Below are positions 10,525 through 24,469 of a DNA stretch of 39,421 nucleotides, one piece after another. Made by a program: the position numbers and the translations under genes. Below the pieces are notes generated by a model. That model was not told the DNA's origin, did not search any database, and saw nothing but the letters and a program-made list of their open reading frames with translations. The stretch comes from a virus: the IMG/VR virus record IMGVR_UViG_3300046008_000639, positions 1-39,421 of that record. One strand, 5' to 3'. Each line of letters begins with the position of its first letter. The first letter of the stretch is position 1.

Positions 10525-10802
10525 GCTGTGATCTCCTTGTTCACTTCGGTCTTGTTGGTTAATGCTGGTGGCTCAATTTTCCTGAGCCAATCCTGGGCAA
10601 AATCTGTGAGGCCCATCGGGATGTGGGCGCGTGGCTGCAGGCGCTCCCCATACTCGGCTTCGCAGCGCCATATTTTTCCGATGTCTTCACGCTCGCCAAC
10701 CAGCTGCTTGACCAGCACAATCAAGCCAATGTTTGGACTGTCTTTTCCAAGCAGTCCATCAATGACGATGCAGAGGTCGCCAGATTTGATTGGTTCTCTC
10801 AT
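10521..10802 (-). CDS. Hypothetical phage protein with SH3/KOW-like motif
   Basis: 93 residues. GDLCIVIDGLLGKDSPNIGLIVLVKQLVGE followed by WRCEAEYGERL resembles a small beta-barrel (KOW or SH3-like) seen in many unnamed phage proteins between thyX-type and replication genes. This is pattern resemblance only. It is coupled by ATGA overlaps on both sides. Confidence 0.6.
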   Translation of the reverse strand: MREPIKSGDLCIVIDGLLGKDSPNIGLIVLVKQLVGEREDIGKIWRCEAEYGERLQPRAHIPMGLTDFAQDWLRKIEPPALTNKTEVNKEITA

Positions 10803-11485
10803 GCCTGGTCTTTCAACTGGTGGCGCTTGAGTGCTGCCACAGCCACCGGCACGATGGGCTCGATCAGCTCCAGCATGGCCTGGGCATAAACGCGGATTTC
10901 ATATTGGCTGTGCTCGTGCAGGCGCAGGCGCAGGAAGTGGGCCAGGTTATGCAGGTCAACTGTGGCGAACATGTGGCTGTACGTGTTCACCGGCAAGACG
11001 CCACGGGCCAACTCACGGGGGCAGCCTTTAGAGATCAGGTCTTGGTACGTCCAGAATGACGAAGCACACGCCGTGGATATCCAATCCTGCATGTGGGGCG
11101 CCATTGGGTGCTCCACATCCGTACGCATCTGCTTGTTGCTCGCAGACTGCGTGGTGATCTGACTGACTTCCGGGATGTAGAACTCTTCCGGCAGCTCTGA
11201 GTACCGGGCTGACACCTCGTTGAAGCTCCAGGTCCGATGGCGGTGCCACTGGCGGAACACGAAGATTGGCGCCTTCACCTCGAAGGTGAACTGTACGCAC
11301 TCGAGCGGGCTGGTATGGTGGTTCTTGATGAGGTAGTCGATGAGTTTGGCATCCTTCCCCTCATCATTACCAGCGCGCCACTCGGCGTCATACGAGACCC
11401 GAGCGGAGCGCACGATGGATAGGTCAGACCCCATGTGGTCGACAAGCCTGACAAGGCCGTGGTTGAGAACTTTGATTTCATTCAT
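10799..11485 (-). CDS. thyX: Flavin-dependent thymidylate synthase
   Basis: 228 residues. The signature RHRTWSFNEVSARYSE (residues 82-97) matches the ThyX motif RHRxxSxNxxSxR. Flanking segments also fit: HHTSPLECVQFTFEVKAPIFVFRQW before it, and ARGVLPVNTYSHMFATVDLHNLAHFLRLR later. It converts dUMP to dTMP using FAD, NADPH and methylene-tetrahydrofolate, supporting phage DNA synthesis in the cytoplasm. It is coupled by ATGA to the genes on both sides, downstream of the helicase. Confidence 0.95.
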   Translation of the reverse strand: MNEIKVLNHGLVRLVDHMGSDLSIVRSARVSYDAEWRAGNDEGKDAKLIDYLIKNHHTSPLECVQFTFEVKAPIFVFRQWHRHRTWSFNEVSARYSELPEEFYIPEVSQITTQSASNKQMRTDVEHPMAPHMQDWISTACASSFWTYQDLISKGCPRELARGVLPVNTYSHMFATVDLHNLAHFLRLRLHEHSQYEIRVYAQAMLELIEPIVPVAVAALKRHQLKDQA

Positions 11486-13833: not shown

Positions 13834-13921
13834 AACTTTTCTCCTTTTGGCAACAAATGGGCGTGCGAATCCTGTAGGGAGTTGTCAACACTTGTCGAAT
13901 TTTGTTAAATTTACTCTGAAT

Positions 13922-13939
13922 GTTTGCTAAAAACCAAAC
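13922..13939. promoter_or_regulatory. Operator-like dyad between the Cro-like and replication genes (site I)
   Basis: GTTTGCT-AAAA-ACCAAAC is a near-perfect 18-bp dyad with the same half-site as the promoter operators. A weak minus-strand promoter (TTTAGC, 17 nt, TTAACA) would overlap it and could drive the replication genes. The 105 bp between the genes are AT-rich and hold no other gene. Confidence 0.5.
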
Positions 13940-14202
13940 TACTTTGCTGGTTTTGCAATAGACTTGGCCTTGAGAGCACGAGCCTTCATCTTCTTAAGTC
14001 GATGGATCTCGCGCTCTTCAACTAGGACTTTGTGGGTTAACTCATTATTCGAGAGCTTGATGATGGTTTTCATCCATGCCGTTGGCATCAGGAGGTGACC
14101 TTTTTTAGCATTTGAAATGTTGGTGGGGTTGATCTTCAGGGTTCGAGCCAAGTGGGCTGCCATCCCTGGGTTGGCGCTTAGCCAGGCTGTAAATTTTTTC
14201 AT
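13939..14202 (-). CDS. Cro-like / YdaS-type DNA-binding protein
   Basis: 87 residues. Residues 1-50 read as a helix-turn-helix of the YdaS/Cro type: FTAWLSANPGMAAHLARTLKINPTNISNAKKGHLLMP. The C-terminus is very basic (HRLKKMKARALKAKSIAKPAK). It is divergent from the S24-type repressor across a 73-bp operator region, the standard Cro/CI arrangement. It probably represses the repressor promoter and is the first gene of the leftward replication unit; that regulation is inferred. Confidence 0.72.
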   Translation of the reverse strand: MKKFTAWLSANPGMAAHLARTLKINPTNISNAKKGHLLMPTAWMKTIIKLSNNELTHKVLVEEREIHRLKKMKARALKAKSIAKPAK

Positions 14203-14216
14203 GTGAGAAGTTTTCT

Positions 14217-14250
14217 GTTTGGTTAATTACAATTCAATTGTACAGCAAAC
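14217..14250. promoter_or_regulatory. Divergent operator region of the repressor switch (site E)
   Basis: Outer half-sites GTTTG (14217-14221) and CAAAC (14246-14250) enclose an inner dyad TACAATT-c-AATTGTA (14228-14242). GTTTGGT and AGCAAAC match half-sites of the other operators, while the inner arms differ. Promoters for both divergent genes must lie here, but no -35/-10 pair is clear enough to assign. Confidence 0.55.
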
Positions 14251-14275
14251 AGTGTTATCAATTTAGGAGCACGAA

Positions 14276-15354: not shown

Positions 15355-15603
15355 TTATCCAGAATAATGACCCGGCGATCTTGCGCGCTCGCAGAGTGTG
15401 GCAGCCAGCCAGCATTCCCACAGCGTCTGTGCATGCGAGCCTGGGTAGCTGCAGCCAGGTGGTGGGGTTTGTTGCCGCAGATAGCCCTGCGCGTCAACCA
15501 GGTAGGCATGGAAGGCCTCACGCAGGGGCAGCAGCCAGGCGGCGTTGTCGGTGTCGTACTGGATGCGGCGCTGCTTGGCCGCCTCGATGGGGTGGGGTGT
15601 CAT
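15355..15603 (-). CDS. Hypothetical phage protein
   Basis: 82 residues; ATG 15603 overlaps the deacetylase stop by ATGA. The C-terminal stretch LWECWLAATLCERAR resembles a short Trp-rich helix found in several unnamed phage proteins. PPPGCSYPGSHAQT is a flexible middle. No function can be assigned. Confidence 0.55.
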   Translation of the reverse strand: MTPHPIEAAKQRRIQYDTDNAAWLLPLREAFHAYLVDAQGYLRQQTPPPGCSYPGSHAQTLWECWLAATLCERARSPGHYSG

Positions 15604-16496
15604 GGCATGGCTTTCAGTGACCGCAAAGCAACACTCTTGTCTGCTTCGCGGATGGTGTTGTGGTGGATCTGCAGGACCGGGTCGTCAAAGATGTCGTTGC
15701 CAGCCTGGTAGCCTCCGGCAAGGTTCCAGGCAATGGGCGCGCGGATGTGTTTGAACACGATGGCGTCTCGCTCTGCAAGCTGTGCAGTTGTCAGGAAGCC
15801 ACCCAGCGGGTCATTAACATGCGGGTCGGCGCCGGCTTGGTAGAGCACCAGGTCAGGGCTGAAGGCGTTGACATCATTGATGGCGTCGGACAGCCAGAAC
15901 TTGAATTCAATGGACTCACGCACCGGGTTGTCCCCATAGAACTTTGCACCCTGGGTGATGTGCAGCACATTGCCAGCCAGGCCAGGCATCTTCTTGAGGA
16001 TGTCCTGGGTGCCGTTGCCGGTGTGCATGTCGCAATCCAGGATAGCAATCTTCATGACCGGGCTCTCAGAGATGAGCTTGGCGGCCACCACCATCAAGCC
16101 GTTGAAGGTGCAGAAGCCACCACCAAAGTCATGGCCGGCGTGGTGGAATCCGGAGGTTGGCGAGCACACCGGGAGCTCTGGGTACTGGATGGCATGGCGC
16201 GCCGCTGACAGCAGGCTGCCAATGGTCCACAAACATGACTCAGGCACCCGCGGGTCAAAATTGCCGTGGCCATTTTGTTCACGAAGTGCAAACACGTTGT
16301 CAACATAGTCAGCAGTGTGCACCAGCTTCAGGTCATCCTGGGTGACCGGGTCAACCCGGCCCAGCTTCTGCGGCCCGTAGGCATGGAAGGCAAAGTGCTG
16401 AAGCAGTTCCACCAGGCGCGCAGGCTTGCCGGCCGATGGGCTGTAGCTGTCAAGGCCGGTGACGTTCTGACGCGGGTCGTAAAAAACAGGGGTCAT
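15600..16496 (-). CDS. Histone-deacetylase-family (arginase/deacetylase fold) amidohydrolase
   Basis: 298 residues, within the family range of 300-380. All catalytic positions of class I/II-type zinc deacetylases can be placed: tandem His 118-119 in SGFHHAGHDFGGGFCTFNG, zinc ligands Asp 156 and His 158 in ILDCDMHTGNGTQ, third ligand Asp 224 in QAGADPHVNDPLGG, and the transition-state Tyr 263 in LAGGYQAG. The enzyme should therefore be active on an acetyl-amide substrate: acetyl-lysine, an acetylated polyamine or similar. It sits in an operon of unknown small genes with ATGA overlaps on both sides, so it is part of the phage and not a stray insertion. The substrate is unknown. Confidence 0.88.
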   Translation of the reverse strand: MTPVFYDPRQNVTGLDSYSPSAGKPARLVELLQHFAFHAYGPQKLGRVDPVTQDDLKLVHTADYVDNVFALREQNGHGNFDPRVPESCLWTIGSLLSAARHAIQYPELPVCSPTSGFHHAGHDFGGGFCTFNGLMVVAAKLISESPVMKIAILDCDMHTGNGTQDILKKMPGLAGNVLHITQGAKFYGDNPVRESIEFKFWLSDAINDVNAFSPDLVLYQAGADPHVNDPLGGFLTTAQLAERDAIVFKHIRAPIAWNLAGGYQAGNDIFDDPVLQIHHNTIREADKSVALRSLKAMP

Positions 16497-17137
16497 TGGG
16501 TCGCCTTCTTATGGTTGTCGTATTGCAGAATACCCCATGCAATGGCGTAACAATTCCACAGAAAGTGGAATGTGTATCGCTCAAAGTCATATTCAAACAA
16601 GTCTTGAAAATAGAAGTTTTCTTGATTGTTGAGGCGATGGCTGAAGTCGTATGCATTTCCTTGCTTTCGGCTTTCATTCGTGTCAATCACATCTTGCTGG
16701 ATGGAGTTCCAAAGATCTCGGCGCTCCTCATGTGTCGTCGTGTCTCGTCTGTCTTTGATCCATTCAATGACATATTGCTTGATGATTTGATCAAAGGCAT
16801 CGCTGTCAAACTCTGTGAATTTTTCGTGCTTGCCAATGGATGTGAGTTTTTCACCCCAGTACGATGGGTTGATGGCCAGATCGGCGACGTCTTTTCGATA
16901 GTTGCGATCCGCGCGAAAAAACTCGAACATGTCATCCAGCCGTCGGAACACGTAAGTGCCGCAGTCGCCGTCAATGCACAGCGATCCATTCCAGGTGATC
17001 AAATCGAACCAGTAACTGCTTGAGTCTTGGCGCTTGAACCTGATGTGGCGATTGACGCCATCATCACGCAGGATGGTCATGATATGGCAGTTGGCGTCTT
17101 TGACGAAGCGCTCAGCTGTGCATTCGAGTTTTTTCAT
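16493..17137 (-). CDS. Hypothetical phage protein, aromatic-rich
   Basis: 214 residues, coupled by ATGA to the deacetylase gene. It starts MKKLECTAERFVKDANCHIMTILRDDGVNRHIRFKRQDSSSYWFDLITWNGSLCIDGDCGTYVFRRLDDMFEFF, a beta-rich N-terminus; the C-terminus is rich in Phe, Tyr and Trp (YFQDLFEYDFERYTFHFLWNCYAIAWGI). It recalls a widespread unnamed phage family, but no function is known to me. Confidence 0.65.
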   Translation of the reverse strand: MKKLECTAERFVKDANCHIMTILRDDGVNRHIRFKRQDSSSYWFDLITWNGSLCIDGDCGTYVFRRLDDMFEFFRADRNYRKDVADLAINPSYWGEKLTSIGKHEKFTEFDSDAFDQIIKQYVIEWIKDRRDTTTHEERRDLWNSIQQDVIDTNESRKQGNAYDFSHRLNNQENFYFQDLFEYDFERYTFHFLWNCYAIAWGILQYDNHKKATQ

Positions 17138-17322
17138 TGGGCTACTCCTTCAGTGTATTTTTGCAGCCGGGCAATTTGTGTCTTGCGGTAGAGGATGATG
17201 CCATTGGCATATTCAGCAGCGGATTGTGCCGCCAGCAGCTGACGCCTGGCTTCTTCGAGCTCGGCCTGGGCGATGATGTCGGCGCTGGGTTTGCGGAAGG
17301 TTTGGATGAGTTCTTTGATCAT
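17134..17322 (-). CDS. Hypothetical small helical phage protein
   Basis: 62 residues from ATG 17322 with AAGGAAAC upstream. The pattern FRKPSADIIAQAELEEARRQLLAAQSAAEYANGIILYRKTQIARL is a familiar small phage protein type with one long amphipathic helix; function unknown. It overlaps its neighbours by ATGA. Confidence 0.65.
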   Translation of the reverse strand: MIKELIQTFRKPSADIIAQAELEEARRQLLAAQSAAEYANGIILYRKTQIARLQKYTEGVAQ

Positions 17323-17654
17323 GATGTTTCCTTGGTTGTAGATTCCATCCATCGTTCGATGTCTGACAGCCTCCATCGCTTTTGCGGCGCCTTAGCAAGC
17401 GCGTTCCCGATGTTCATTGGCCTTGGCAGCGATCCGGAATTTGTGAGGTTATCCACATGGGCTGAACTGCAACCAAGATACTCCGCCAGTTGGCTTCTGG
17501 ACAGCAGTTGCGCACCTCTTGATACGGTAAAGCCGCGACTCTCAAGAAACTTTGTTGCAATGCGAATTTTTTCGCCGTCAGTTTTTTGAATCGCTGGAAT
17601 TGGCTTGACTCCGGCGGCTGGGTAGCACCATGGGTGCGTGCTTGCATTCGTCAT
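17319..17654 (-). CDS. AlpA / MerR-type helix-turn-helix protein
   Basis: 111 residues; GGAGAC precedes ATG 17654. Residues 52-104 form an excisionase-like winged-helix unit: LLSRSQLAEYLGCSSAHVDNLTNSGSLPRPMNIG, then KRWRLSDIERWMES. AlpA, Xis and HTH_17 proteins share this layout and act as DNA-bending regulators or excisionases. No integrase is in the window, so a regulatory role is at least as likely. Confidence 0.7.
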   Translation of the reverse strand: MTNASTHPWCYPAAGVKPIPAIQKTDGEKIRIATKFLESRGFTVSRGAQLLSRSQLAEYLGCSSAHVDNLTNSGSLPRPMNIGNALAKAPQKRWRLSDIERWMESTTKETS

Positions 17655-17866
17655 GTTGTCTCCAAGAGGTGCAGGCTGATGATGTCGCGCAGCTTGGTGA
17701 GCTGTTCGCGGCTCAAGGTGGTGGCGAACGGTGTGTGGCGCTCATAAGGGAACCGGGTGCCCAGCAGCTGGGTGGTGAACTTCAGGTGGAAGCTGTCGGC
17801 CAAGGTTTCAACCTTGGAGATCTCCGCTCGCTGGGTGAAGTTGTCGGTGGTGATGAATTTGTTCAT
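17651..17866 (-). CDS. Hypothetical small phage protein
   Basis: 71 residues: beta-rich N-terminus (FTQRAEISKVETLADSFHLKFTTQLLGTRFPYERHTPF) followed by a helix (SREQLTKLRDIISLHLLE). The layout suggests a small host-takeover or regulator protein, but no family is recognised. ATGA overlaps on both sides. Confidence 0.6.
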   Translation of the reverse strand: MNKFITTDNFTQRAEISKVETLADSFHLKFTTQLLGTRFPYERHTPFATTLSREQLTKLRDIISLHLLETT

Positions 17867-20409: not shown

Positions 20410-20751
20410 TTAGTAGTTGCGAGATGTGGAGAGGAGAACGCTGAACACGCCCTTGCGGACCTTGGTCACGCTGGCAGAGGCCGACCAGCAGCCGCAGCAG
20501 TCATGCTCGTGAGAGCACCCGCCATACGACATGTTTTGCGAGATGGTGCGCTGCAGCACCTTTTGATCTGCACCCTTGGGGCCAATCACACGGAACCGCG
20601 TGGTTGGCCCGACGTCATAACCATTACCCTCGTCAAGCAGCTTGTCGCCAAGCACTTTGATCTCGAAGGATTGACCCCATTGGTCAAGGTGGCTGCACGA
20701 ATCAACGTAACGGCTGGTGAGGCGCTCTTCAATGAATTGCTTTGTGGCCAT
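20410..20751 (-). CDS. Hypothetical Cys-rich phage protein
   Basis: 113 residues from ATG 20751, with AAGGAG upstream; a longer frame to 20796 would start inside the terminator hairpin. Beta-rich, with a metal-site-like cluster (GGCSHEHDCCGCW near residue 80). No family is recognised. The terminator at 20774-20803 lies directly upstream, so it needs its own promoter or read-through. Confidence 0.6.
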   Translation of the reverse strand: MATKQFIEERLTSRYVDSCSHLDQWGQSFEIKVLGDKLLDEGNGYDVGPTTRFRVIGPKGADQKVLQRTISQNMSYGGCSHEHDCCGCWSASASVTKVRKGVFSVLLSTSRNY

Positions 20752-20773
20752 GATGATCTCCTTGGTTGAGAAA

Positions 20774-20803
20774 CAAAAAAGCCGCCTGGGTTGCAAGCGG
20801 CTT
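20774..20803 (-). terminator. Intrinsic terminator ending the minus-strand non-coding RNA
   Basis: The minus strand reads AAGCCGC / GCGGCTT (7 bp, 11-nt loop) followed by six T. It closes the 440-nt gene-free transcript that begins near 21,211. Confidence 0.75.
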
Positions 20804-21211
20804 GTGTGGGTTGTTCAGTTGATATGGACCCCTATTCGCATATAGCTTTCGAGGTGCTGCCAGACTTTGTTAGCTTCGGTGAACCGTCGCATTTCGCCGT
20901 TTGTTTCGAGTTCCTTGTTTAAGGGATGGTGTACTACCTCTGGGCGTTATCCTTCCTGACCGTCAATCAACCAAACACATAAGCTTCCTGGTTGCAAGCG
21001 GCTTATGTGTTTCGCCAGCTTCACAGCTAGCTAACAACGGGTCTTATATTCATCCCCGTATCAAAGGACCGGCTTCAGGTGGCGGTCAGACCTCGTTTCA
21101 CACCGTCTAGGCTGGATTTATTCAGCGTCAAGGGCGTCAACTCTTTTGTATTCCGCCGTTGAGAGCGGTTCGGCTTGTTGGCTGCCTGTCGAAGCGACGA
21201 TCCGTTTCGAT
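20774..21211 (-). ncRNA. Candidate structured non-coding RNA (about 440 nt)
   Basis: No open frame of note on the minus strand. The unit has its own operator-bearing promoter (21218-21247) and an intrinsic terminator. Potential structures: a perfect 12-bp stem AAACACATAAGC / GCTTATGTGTTT (20973-20984 with 21001-21012), a 7-bp stem with a GTGA tetraloop (GCTAGCT-GTGA-AGCTGGC, 21031-21014), and an ACGGG/CCCGT stem (21060-21036 area). A 23-24-nt near-identical repeat occurs twice (20785-20808 and 20987-21009), once in the terminator loop and once in the 12-bp hairpin loop. It matches no RNA family I recognise. Confidence 0.55.
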
Positions 21212-21217
21212 GGGTGA

Positions 21218-21247
21218 AGTATAGCTGTTTAGCAAACATTGATGCAA
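21218..21247 (-). promoter_or_regulatory. Sigma70 promoter with operator (site H) for the non-coding RNA
   Basis: The minus strand reads TTGCAT (21247-21242), an 18-nt spacer, then TATACT (21223-21218). Half-sites GTTTGCT and GCTATAC (21237-21219) are identical to those of site A, here with a 5-nt instead of 4-nt centre. Confidence 0.65.
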
Positions 21248-22218: not shown

Positions 22219-22262
22219 TAAAAGATTGCATAAATTTGCTATTTATTTTTTTGGCTGGAAAG

Positions 22263-22466
22263 CTTCGGTTTGAAACCGGACCTTCAGGCCAGGTGTGTGG
22301 ATGCAAATTCTGGGGCTGTGCCGGGTAACGCCTGGGTAACGCTGTGAGCGTTACTTTTGCGTTAGCAGTTTGTTGACCATAGCGTTAACGACTGGTGCAC
22401 GAAGCGTGCACGGTTCGTGTGGGCGTGTGCACATCAGGTTGATTACTTCGGTTTGAAACGGAAGTA
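22263..22466. repeat. Pair of palindromes sharing CTTCGGTTTGAAAC
   Basis: A 14-nt direct repeat occurs at 22263-22276 and 22446-22459. Each copy is the core of a palindrome: CGGTTTGAAACCG (22266-22278), and a 23-bp imperfect dyad with arms TACTTC / GAAGTA (22444-22466). They bracket the iteron module and a 7-bp GTGCACG / CGTGCAC hairpin (22395-22411). Confidence 0.5.
22324..22389. repeat. Iteron-like repeat module 3 in the control region
   Basis: GGTAACGC (22324-22331), GGTAACGC (22335-22342) and inverted GCGTTACT (22348-22355) with the same 3- and 5-nt gaps as modules 1 and 2. Further inverted copies GCGTTAGC (22359-22366) and GCGTTAAC (22382-22389) follow. It lies next to an AT-rich stretch and palindromes, as expected for an origin. 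Confidence 0.65.
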
Positions 22467-22781
22467 TTCACCAGCCCAATGGGAGGCCACTGGCTTTTTC
22501 TGGACGAGGCTACAGCAGGGTGACCAGGGGAGGTCTCCCACTCCAGCTTCACCCATCTTCTGCGGGTGAGGCCCAAGTGCCAATGAGGGGTCGTTGATCT
22601 CCGGTGGTGCTACTCAGTCACATTCACCACCAGATTGCTGCAGTCGCCGTACCAACGCTGCGCCGGGTCACGTTTGGTTGTGCGTTCCCTGTGTTTCATT
22701 CCAAGCGCCCCATGCAAGGCCACTGCTGACGGGTGGAGTCCGGTCAGGCAATGCGGAAAACAAAAAAACCCTTTGGTCCTA

Positions 22782-22867
22782 GTTCTCCGCCTGGCAGCAA
22801 AACATTGAAATCAATGTCTAAAGAGAACCAAGGCCAAAAGGCTTTGGGTGTTGTCTTGCTGCCAGGC
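22782..22867 (+). ncRNA. Potential three-way-junction RNA element
   Basis: A perfect 12-bp outer stem GCCTGGCAGCAA / TTGCTGCCAGGC (22789-22800, 22856-22867) encloses two hairpins: ACATTG/CAATGT (22802-22817) and CCAAGGCC-AAAA-GGCTTTGG (22828-22847, with one G-U pair that favours the plus strand). GTTCTC just 5' of the outer stem (22782-22787) can pair with GAGAAC in the junction (22823-22828). It lies 75 bp before NinG. Could be a leader RNA element or a protein-bound DNA cruciform. Confidence 0.45.
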
Positions 22868-22885
22868 TTGACGAAAAGTATTTTA

Positions 22886-22903
22886 GCATACTGTCAAGCA
22901 AAC
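22886..22903. promoter_or_regulatory. Operator-like dyad upstream of ninG (site G)
   Basis: GCATACT-GTCA-AGCAAAC has the common AGCAAAC half and a weaker second half. A TTGACG box lies at 22868-22873, but no -10 box stands at the right distance, so the rightward promoter is not located. Confidence 0.4.
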
Positions 22904-22941
22904 GGCAAAATCAGGGTTGATGGTACTGTAAAATTGCGCCA

Positions 22942-23543: not shown

Positions 23544-23918
23544 ATGACCGAGAAGAAGCACAGTCACTATTTCCGCGATGTCTCCAAGCTGGAGTCCATC
23601 GATGTCTACCGCATCCTGGAGCTCTTTGATGTGAGCTGCCCGATTGCGCAGCACATTGTGAAAAAAGCCCTGGCGGCCGGCAAGCGTGGCGCCAAGAGCT
23701 CGGCGCGAGACATGCAGGACATTGCCGACAGCGCCAACCGCTGGCTGGAGATGCGCCAGGAGGATGCGAGCACCATTCTGGAAGACCCAACCGTCAAGCC
23801 AAATGCATCGCTATGGGGTGATCCGACATACAAAATCAGTGAGCAGGCAAACATGCAGTACCGGCGCCACCTGGATGCCATGCCACTGGTTGACAACGCG
23901 ATGATCGTCCCGAAATGA
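23544..23918 (+). CDS. Conserved phage protein downstream of NinG
   Basis: 124 residues. HYFRDVSKLESIDVYRILELFDVSCPIAQHIVKKALAAGKRGAKSSARDMQDIADSANRWLEMRQEDA is a pattern I associate with a widespread phage family of unknown function lying near recombination genes. It is helical, starts 11 nt after ninG, and its stop overlaps the next start by ATGA. Confidence 0.7.
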   Translation: MTEKKHSHYFRDVSKLESIDVYRILELFDVSCPIAQHIVKKALAAGKRGAKSSARDMQDIADSANRWLEMRQEDASTILEDPTVKPNASLWGDPTYKISEQANMQYRRHLDAMPLVDNAMIVPK

Positions 23919-24469
23919 CCAGCAGACGCTCAATGCAAGAGCGCTACATGAGCGCGCGCAACACCAGTAGCCTGGTGCTGTCATCGCGCACTGTCGGCAG
24001 CGCTGACGTGATGATTGCTGCGGGGCGTGTCGCCAAGCGCAGTGAACGCAAGGCCATGGCGCTGGCGGTGTGGGGTGTGCTGACGACGGAGAACATGCGC
24101 GGCGCCAATGCGGTGGCTGATGTGATGGCCAGGTGGATTCGTGAGCACGCATACCAGATGGGAGAGCGCATCAAGCCACCAATGCCAATGGCATTCGATG
24201 TGGCGATGGCTGTGCTCAAGTGGTGGCGCGCACCGGCTTGCTTGACATGCGGCGGCCACGGCCACCCAAATATTTTGAATTCGCCGGTGATTGATGAACT
24301 GCGTGACTGCCCGGATTGCCGCGGCACCGGACGAATACCGCTGGAGCGCCTGGTGCGCAGTGAGTATGTGGCGCACGCCCACTGGCTGAGTGGTGAGATT
24401 GACACGCTGTGCGCGCTGGTTTTTGGCGAGATGGCGCGCGAGCTCAACGATTCGATGGACCTTCTTTGA
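23915..24469 (+). CDS. Zinc-motif protein, possible late regulator
   Basis: 184 residues. Two CxxCxGxG-type knuckles (CLTCGGHGHPN near residue 108 and CPDCRGTGR near residue 132) resemble those in DnaJ and in some lambdoid Q antiterminators. The N-terminal region (SERKAMALAVWGVLTTENMRGANAVADVMARWIREHAY) and C-terminal helix are otherwise unassigned. Its place between ninG and the terminator-rich late genes matches that of a late regulator, but the identification rests on motif and position only. Confidence 0.55.
   Translation: MTSRRSMQERYMSARNTSSLVLSSRTVGSADVMIAAGRVAKRSERKAMALAVWGVLTTENMRGANAVADVMARWIREHAYQMGERIKPPMPMAFDVAMAVLKWWRAPACLTCGGHGHPNILNSPVIDELRDCPDCRGTGRIPLERLVRSEYVAHAHWLSGEIDTLCALVFGEMARELNDSMDLL

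Follow-up and report, generated by a model that had tools for sequence, protein, structure and literature searches.

A conserved structured leader RNA in an early operon of a temperate phage, a candidate for put-like readthrough control

To our knowledge few processive antiterminators consist of RNA alone; the main phage case is put, which suppresses termination via the beta' zinc-binding domain and requires no phage protein. In the lambda pR'-6S RNA-tR' layout, a promoter is followed by a long non-coding leader, a terminator and the genes behind it; pR' is a constitutive late-gene promoter that relies on binding of Q to promoter DNA. In phage HK022, putL lies just past pL, spans about 70 nt, folds into two stem-loops and needs no phage protein to act on polymerase, and the phage carries two such elements, putL and putR (PMC9378689).

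Here we compare with these systems a locus from the virus record of a temperate phage, analysed over its whole length of 39,421 bases (the window). Replication and recombination genes occupy the minus strand in the left part of the window, and NinG, a lambda-Q-like protein, terminase and portal are encoded on the plus strand in the right part; a ThyX-type thymidylate synthase (10799-11485, minus strand) lies inside the replication operon. The locus sits within a minus-strand operon spanning 22,143 to 15,600, where sequence and comparison with relatives show a promoter, an operator, a structured non-coding RNA and the position of a terminator, with the following features:

21218-21247, minus strand: predicted leader promoter, -35 TTGCAT (21247-21242), 18-nt spacer, -10 TATACT (21223-21218)
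21226-21238, unstranded: putative palindromic operator TGTTTAGCAAACA, inside the promoter spacer and overlapping the promoter
20774-21214, minus strand: structured leader RNA, +1 predicted at about 21211-21214; blastn matches to G003 (E=1e-11) and G001 (E=8e-10); covariance model R1
21203-21214, minus strand: 5'-terminal motif CCCATCGAAACG, 4 nt past the -10 box, kept with its spacing in all leader relatives
21189-21210, minus strand: hairpin HP1 (UCGAA...UUCGA), with a covarying pair
21172-21186, minus strand: hairpin HP2 (GGC AGCCAACAA GCC), with GCC/GGC, GGC/GCC and GACC/GGUC as alternatives across relatives
21153-21168, minus strand: hairpin HP3 (CCGCUCUCAACGGCGG), whose stem relatives keep with different letters
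21014-21031, minus strand: 7-bp stem with a GTGA loop and one G-U, read from the sequence and present in the fold
20973-21012, minus strand: perfect 12-bp hairpin
20773-20803, minus strand: intrinsic terminator, stem 20803-20779, T-run to 20773
20410-20751, minus strand: first gene of the leader operon (phrog_20892, function unknown), start ATG at 20751
15600-16496, minus strand: last gene of the leader operon, a histone-deacetylase-family protein (Pfam Hist_deacetyl, 4e-34), kept in G001, G003, L070 and L081
14276-14977, plus strand: CI-like repressor (HTH and S24 peptidase), 54-62% identity to G001, L070 and G003
14239-14251, plus strand: operator-like site between CI and cro, two mismatches to the leader operator, position kept in relatives
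13939-14202, minus strand: cro-like gene, named by position, 55-65% identity and the same place in relatives; a family match was looked for and none found
13921-13933, minus strand: operator-like site in the gap between the cro-like gene and a replication gene, one mismatch to the leader operator, position kept in relatives
23915-24469, plus strand: lambda-Q-like antiterminator candidate for late control, Foldseek match to lambda Q (7ubn_Q)

Another intergenic stretch of about 700 nt (22220-22910, minus strand), with a promoter-like site at 22908-22880 and a 16-nt inverted repeat at 22789-22867, is probably what an earlier note on this DNA listed as its first non-coding transcript. Leader positions 20855-20867 are almost identical to 22857-22869 of the window.

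The same module occurs in seven other uncultivated phage contigs. Two of these, G001 and G003, were found by whole-record search among phages picked via a recombination protein, and match the window in promoter, 5' leader and terminator; the other five (L041, L070, L080, L081 and L082) were added by pattern scans of viral contigs, which returned 60 and 12 stretches, mostly chance. The leader promoter is present in all relatives and the terminator in most, the leader of L080 being cut by the contig end and the terminator of L082 weak. G001, G003 and L070 keep CI and cro as well as the last genes of the operon (15600-16496, 17134-17376 and 17651-17866). The genes flanking or directly behind the leader are unrelated among the phages that bear it, so the leader is conserved in its own right. 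L041 and L070 are a case in point: their leaders are nearly identical up to the terminator, after which different genes follow, and of the four base differences before the terminator stem three fall in stem P7, all three pair-preserving. The window and G003 form a second leader class, alike in the first ~90 nt and again in the terminator, and the 3' halves of the RNA differ between relatives. Copies elsewhere were sought in several ways. A pattern scan of genome contigs for prophage copies gave five stretches, none of which continued into the rest of the element, and the covariance model scored no more than 24 bits on the three of those genomes searched; a search of 369 genomes of one class, with strict filters and without a positive control, found no leader copy. 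No leader match was returned by blastn against known phages and plasmids; a match in Pectobacterium phage MA6 lay inside a coding gene, and one in Pseudomonas phage XD2 corresponded to the gene behind the L081 RNA.

The earlier note, made from the sequence, had proposed a minus-strand promoter and an intrinsic terminator bounding about 440 nt without a useful reading frame. Both signals held up, with the -10 box at 21223-21218, the terminator at 20803-20773 and the promoter aligned in relatives. The -10 box is good; the -35 box is weak and under the cut-off of a generic promoter scan, and the promoter call is supported because the aligned promoter of G001, G003, L041 and L070 has a full TTGACA at -35. 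That the promoter is repressible and under a control common to the early genes, as had also been suggested, is favoured by the match between the putative operator and sites in the CI/cro region. In each of four phages (the window, G001, L070 and G003) the half-site TGTTTGC is found at three places, namely the leader promoter, the CI-cro gap and the region behind cro, and the 13-mer AATGTTTGCTAAA of the leader operator is found again behind cro, at about 13918. By itself the heptamer is common in the window (14 sites versus about 5 expected), and the argument for shared control therefore rests on the repeated positions. L080, L081 and L082 probably use other repressors, because their promoter spacers differ from that of the window. 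Given an operator indicated by sequence and comparison, we infer that a repressor binds there.

Between promoter and terminator lie some 430-440 nt without a conserved reading frame. The longest minus-strand ORF (54 aa, 21075-21239) starts within the promoter, and a coding gene was rejected on the grounds that frames are shifted or stopped between relatives; the conserved coding frame that would have refuted the note's reading was looked for there and not found. Structure, by comparison, is retained. The first ~54 nt from +1 form two covarying hairpins, HP1 and HP2; in seven sequences of this 5' module 96.8% of pair cells are standard and the cells changed on both sides exceed 500 of 500 shuffles, a control subject to a relatedness caveat, while the pairs with changes on both sides number two, within chance. 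Structure over the whole RNA (~300 nt) was tested on class B, which comprises the four relatives G001, L041, L070 and L081, with the window and G003 outside it. The drawn structure has 55 pairs with 93.5% standard cells, and ten pairs changed on both sides versus 2.7 by shuffling (equalled in 0 of 500 shuffles); slid versions give 0-3, a control biased towards the structure, since this was drawn from one of the sequences of the class. RNAalifold independently predicts most of the class B helices and adds an invariant helix, CAUCC/GGGUG, closing HP1-HP3 into a cloverleaf-like domain. In the window, the whole-RNA fold energy has a z of -2.2, and the two hairpins that the note had picked out were recovered: the perfect 12-bp hairpin, equalled by 0 of 200 dinucleotide shuffles, and the 7-bp stem with its GTGA loop (21031-21014), by reading and by fold. 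The 12-bp hairpin shares a 20-nt repeat (95%, 201 nt apart) with the terminator (20779-20808), and looks like a second terminator copy with a changed 3' arm and a lost T-run. Rfam 15 gave no match at the gathering score in the window and relatives other than tRNA elsewhere, and at a relaxed cut-off the sole match was isrD (26.6 bits where 37 are needed) at the 3' end of the L070 leader. As its structure is conserved while neighbouring genes and reading frames are not, we conclude on comparative grounds that the module is a genuine structured non-coding RNA absent from Rfam. The covariance model from related phages that the note had called for was built and works, and what had been the layout of an RNA gene is confirmed, at the level of sequence comparison, as a structured RNA.

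Whether this RNA is a unit of its own depends on what lies behind it. The terminator ranks top among the listed terminator-like sites over 19 kb and both strands, and its stem in G003 carries a compensatory change relative to the window (GCCGC/GCGGC versus GCCAC/GTGGC). About 10 nt past the T-run is a ribosome-binding site, AAGGAG, which the note omitted, followed by the ATG at 20751. In five phages (the window, G001, G003, L041 and L070) the terminator stands immediately before the first ribosome-binding site with no space for a promoter. Since it lies between the leader promoter and the first gene, and space excludes another promoter, expression of the operon from the leader promoter needs readthrough, and most likely it is the leader that determines whether transcription reaches the downstream genes. 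Operon-strand terminators also occur past the leader (three in the window, two each in G001 and G003, four in L070 and three in L081), a weak enrichment at 14, besides the leader's own, versus 9 on the other strand there.

We favour, tentatively and with somewhat less than even confidence, the reading in which the untranslated leader of the early operon is a cis-acting device for processive antitermination or attenuation that works like HK022 put. The operon, from about 21,211 down to 15,600, would begin with the leader, and in a lysogen CI and/or Cro at 21226-21238 would shut its promoter. With the repressor gone, RNA polymerase would transcribe the leader, whose 5' three-hairpin domain and structured remainder would fold during emergence. 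By default transcription would end at the terminator ahead of the first gene, and the leader, once folded, would act on the polymerase in cis and permit passage through this terminator and later ones. Readthrough control would thus be the function and the RNA itself the cause. The anatomy suggests a cis RNA antiterminator or attenuator because the conserved part is the transcribed structure from +1 and not an adjacent protein gene, and a device of RNA only is favoured because no directly downstream gene is conserved and no N-like partner is seen there. Against put-like working, the conserved structure of ~300 nt is more than known antiterminator RNAs need.

That size, far larger than a minimal antiterminator, would suit a stand-alone RNA acting in trans after induction, as a regulator or decoy, the operon being expressed through leaky termination or from a promoter that lies upstream of 22,143. 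We consider this unlikely, though the best of the alternatives: the whole-RNA structure is conserved in four relatives, and every relative has a promoter for the RNA and most a terminator, but the RNA of L081 lacks a terminator and continues directly into the ribosome-binding site of a gene, elsewhere the terminator adjoins the first gene, and the 3' halves vary. The cis-acting leader is favoured over an independent RNA gene because of this placement in five phages, the lack of a terminator in L081 and the absence of promoter space. The description of the locus as a complete RNA gene accordingly stands for a non-coding, structured RNA with its own promoter and terminator, and finds no support on independence; a stand-alone RNA is less likely than an early-operon leader, and an additional role in trans is possible.

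An attenuator switched by a host factor or by a phage protein, be it an unknown early protein or the Q-like one (23915-24469), seems to us less probable again. The layout resembles lambda pR'-6S RNA-tR', and a Q-like gene is present in the window, L041, G003, L080 and L081, that is, in every leader-bearing phage with the region covered; its predicted fold matches 7ubn_Q with a Foldseek probability of 1.00 (E=6e-3, TM 0.4). However, the gene lies in the divergent late operon, and the late promoter is where Q normally works. Nor is any element visibly shared in the promoter DNA of the relatives, which have only the transcribed sequence in common. The Q-like protein is a zinc-finger protein without a usable family match, and constitutes a divergent Q-like family that five of the phages carry. 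A leader that serves 5' stability or translation and also insulates, its hairpins shielding the 5' end and its terminator mainly stopping transcription from upstream, is improbable: the 5' motif does by itself begin short leaders of unrelated phages, for which we know of no antitermination, but a terminator placed behind the promoter of the leader would shut off the very operon that this promoter serves, and ~300 nt of specific structure are needless for stability.

The leader RNA starts with CCATCGAAACG, 4-5 nt past the -10 box, and many unrelated phages have transcripts that begin in this way too. With the HK639 leader as query, blastn matched 243 phage records with E values up to 10, and in ten records inspected, from lambdoid phages, Drexlerviridae, Vequintavirinae, Straboviridae and Serratia phages, CCATCGAAAC lies 4-7 nt past a -10-like hexamer. 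It is often extended as CCATCGAAACGAAAC at the transcript start (L112-L129; L130, phi80 pL 401-449; window 21203-21214), and its occurrences include lambdoid pL, T1-like phages, Vequintavirinae before tRNA, T4-like phiAS5 and Serratia phages. A longer pattern of the motif was found in 0 of 369 bacterial genomes, and a search for the motif found no phage paper among the literature available. The leader covariance model, built from the leader-bearing phages only, weakly matches the pL transcript starts of KO-TP1, ENT1, phi80, CobraSix and HK639 (E 1e-4 to 0.7 for the four other than ENT1), loci chosen for carrying CCATCGAAAC; the matched starts precede nutL or putL in those phages for which either is annotated or recognised (nut type in phi80 and KO-TP1, putL behind in HK639 and CobraSix). 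Beyond CCATCGAA the similarity is marginal (17/500 shuffles for phi80, 17-21/500 for phi80 and KO-TP1, 107/500 for HK639), and kinship with the pL leaders of phi80, KO-TP1 and HK639 is suggestive, no more. Why unrelated phages, from lambdoid and T1-like to T4-like phages and Vequintavirinae, start transcripts with a shared motif is a question in its own right. A bolder possibility, which we hold doubtful, is a new family of structured phage RNAs of 300-440 nt that alone switch polymerase to a terminator-resistant state and are built on CCATCGAAACG as a common undescribed transcript start.

Set against described systems, the leader resembles put (HK022, HK75, HK639 and phiEt88) in being a cis RNA with which an early transcript under repressor control begins, where hairpins fill ~70 nt near +1, terminators follow and no dedicated protein gene is conserved alongside; its position is likewise put-like, with 4-5 nt from the -10 box to the element and operator half-sites common to CI-cro. 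In contrast to the two copies of HK022, one per early operon, it is single-copy in every record, several of which are fragments, and it comprises, besides three small hairpins, another ~220-350 nt. A put covariance model (R2, eight put sequences) matched none of the eight leaders, while the control Et88 putR, outside the training set, was detected at E 1.5e-11; because of this and the absent second copy, the leader is by sequence criteria not a put member. The phi80 pL leader/nutL likewise starts with (T)CCATCGAAACG 4 nt past the -10 box, followed by two small hairpins, at a CI-controlled early leftward promoter, but phi80 has an annotated boxA, nut core and N gene, none of which was recognised for the leader; judged by eye, the HP2 loop is 9 nt and AGC-A-rich, and a conserved boxA was not seen. 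With lambda pR' the locus shares the order of promoter, long non-coding leader, terminator and genes behind, yet the leader promoter is of repressor type and early, and what is conserved is RNA structure. If the preferred reading as a put-like device is true, the leader would be a second, larger RNA-only antiterminator and a new testable example outside enterobacterial phages.
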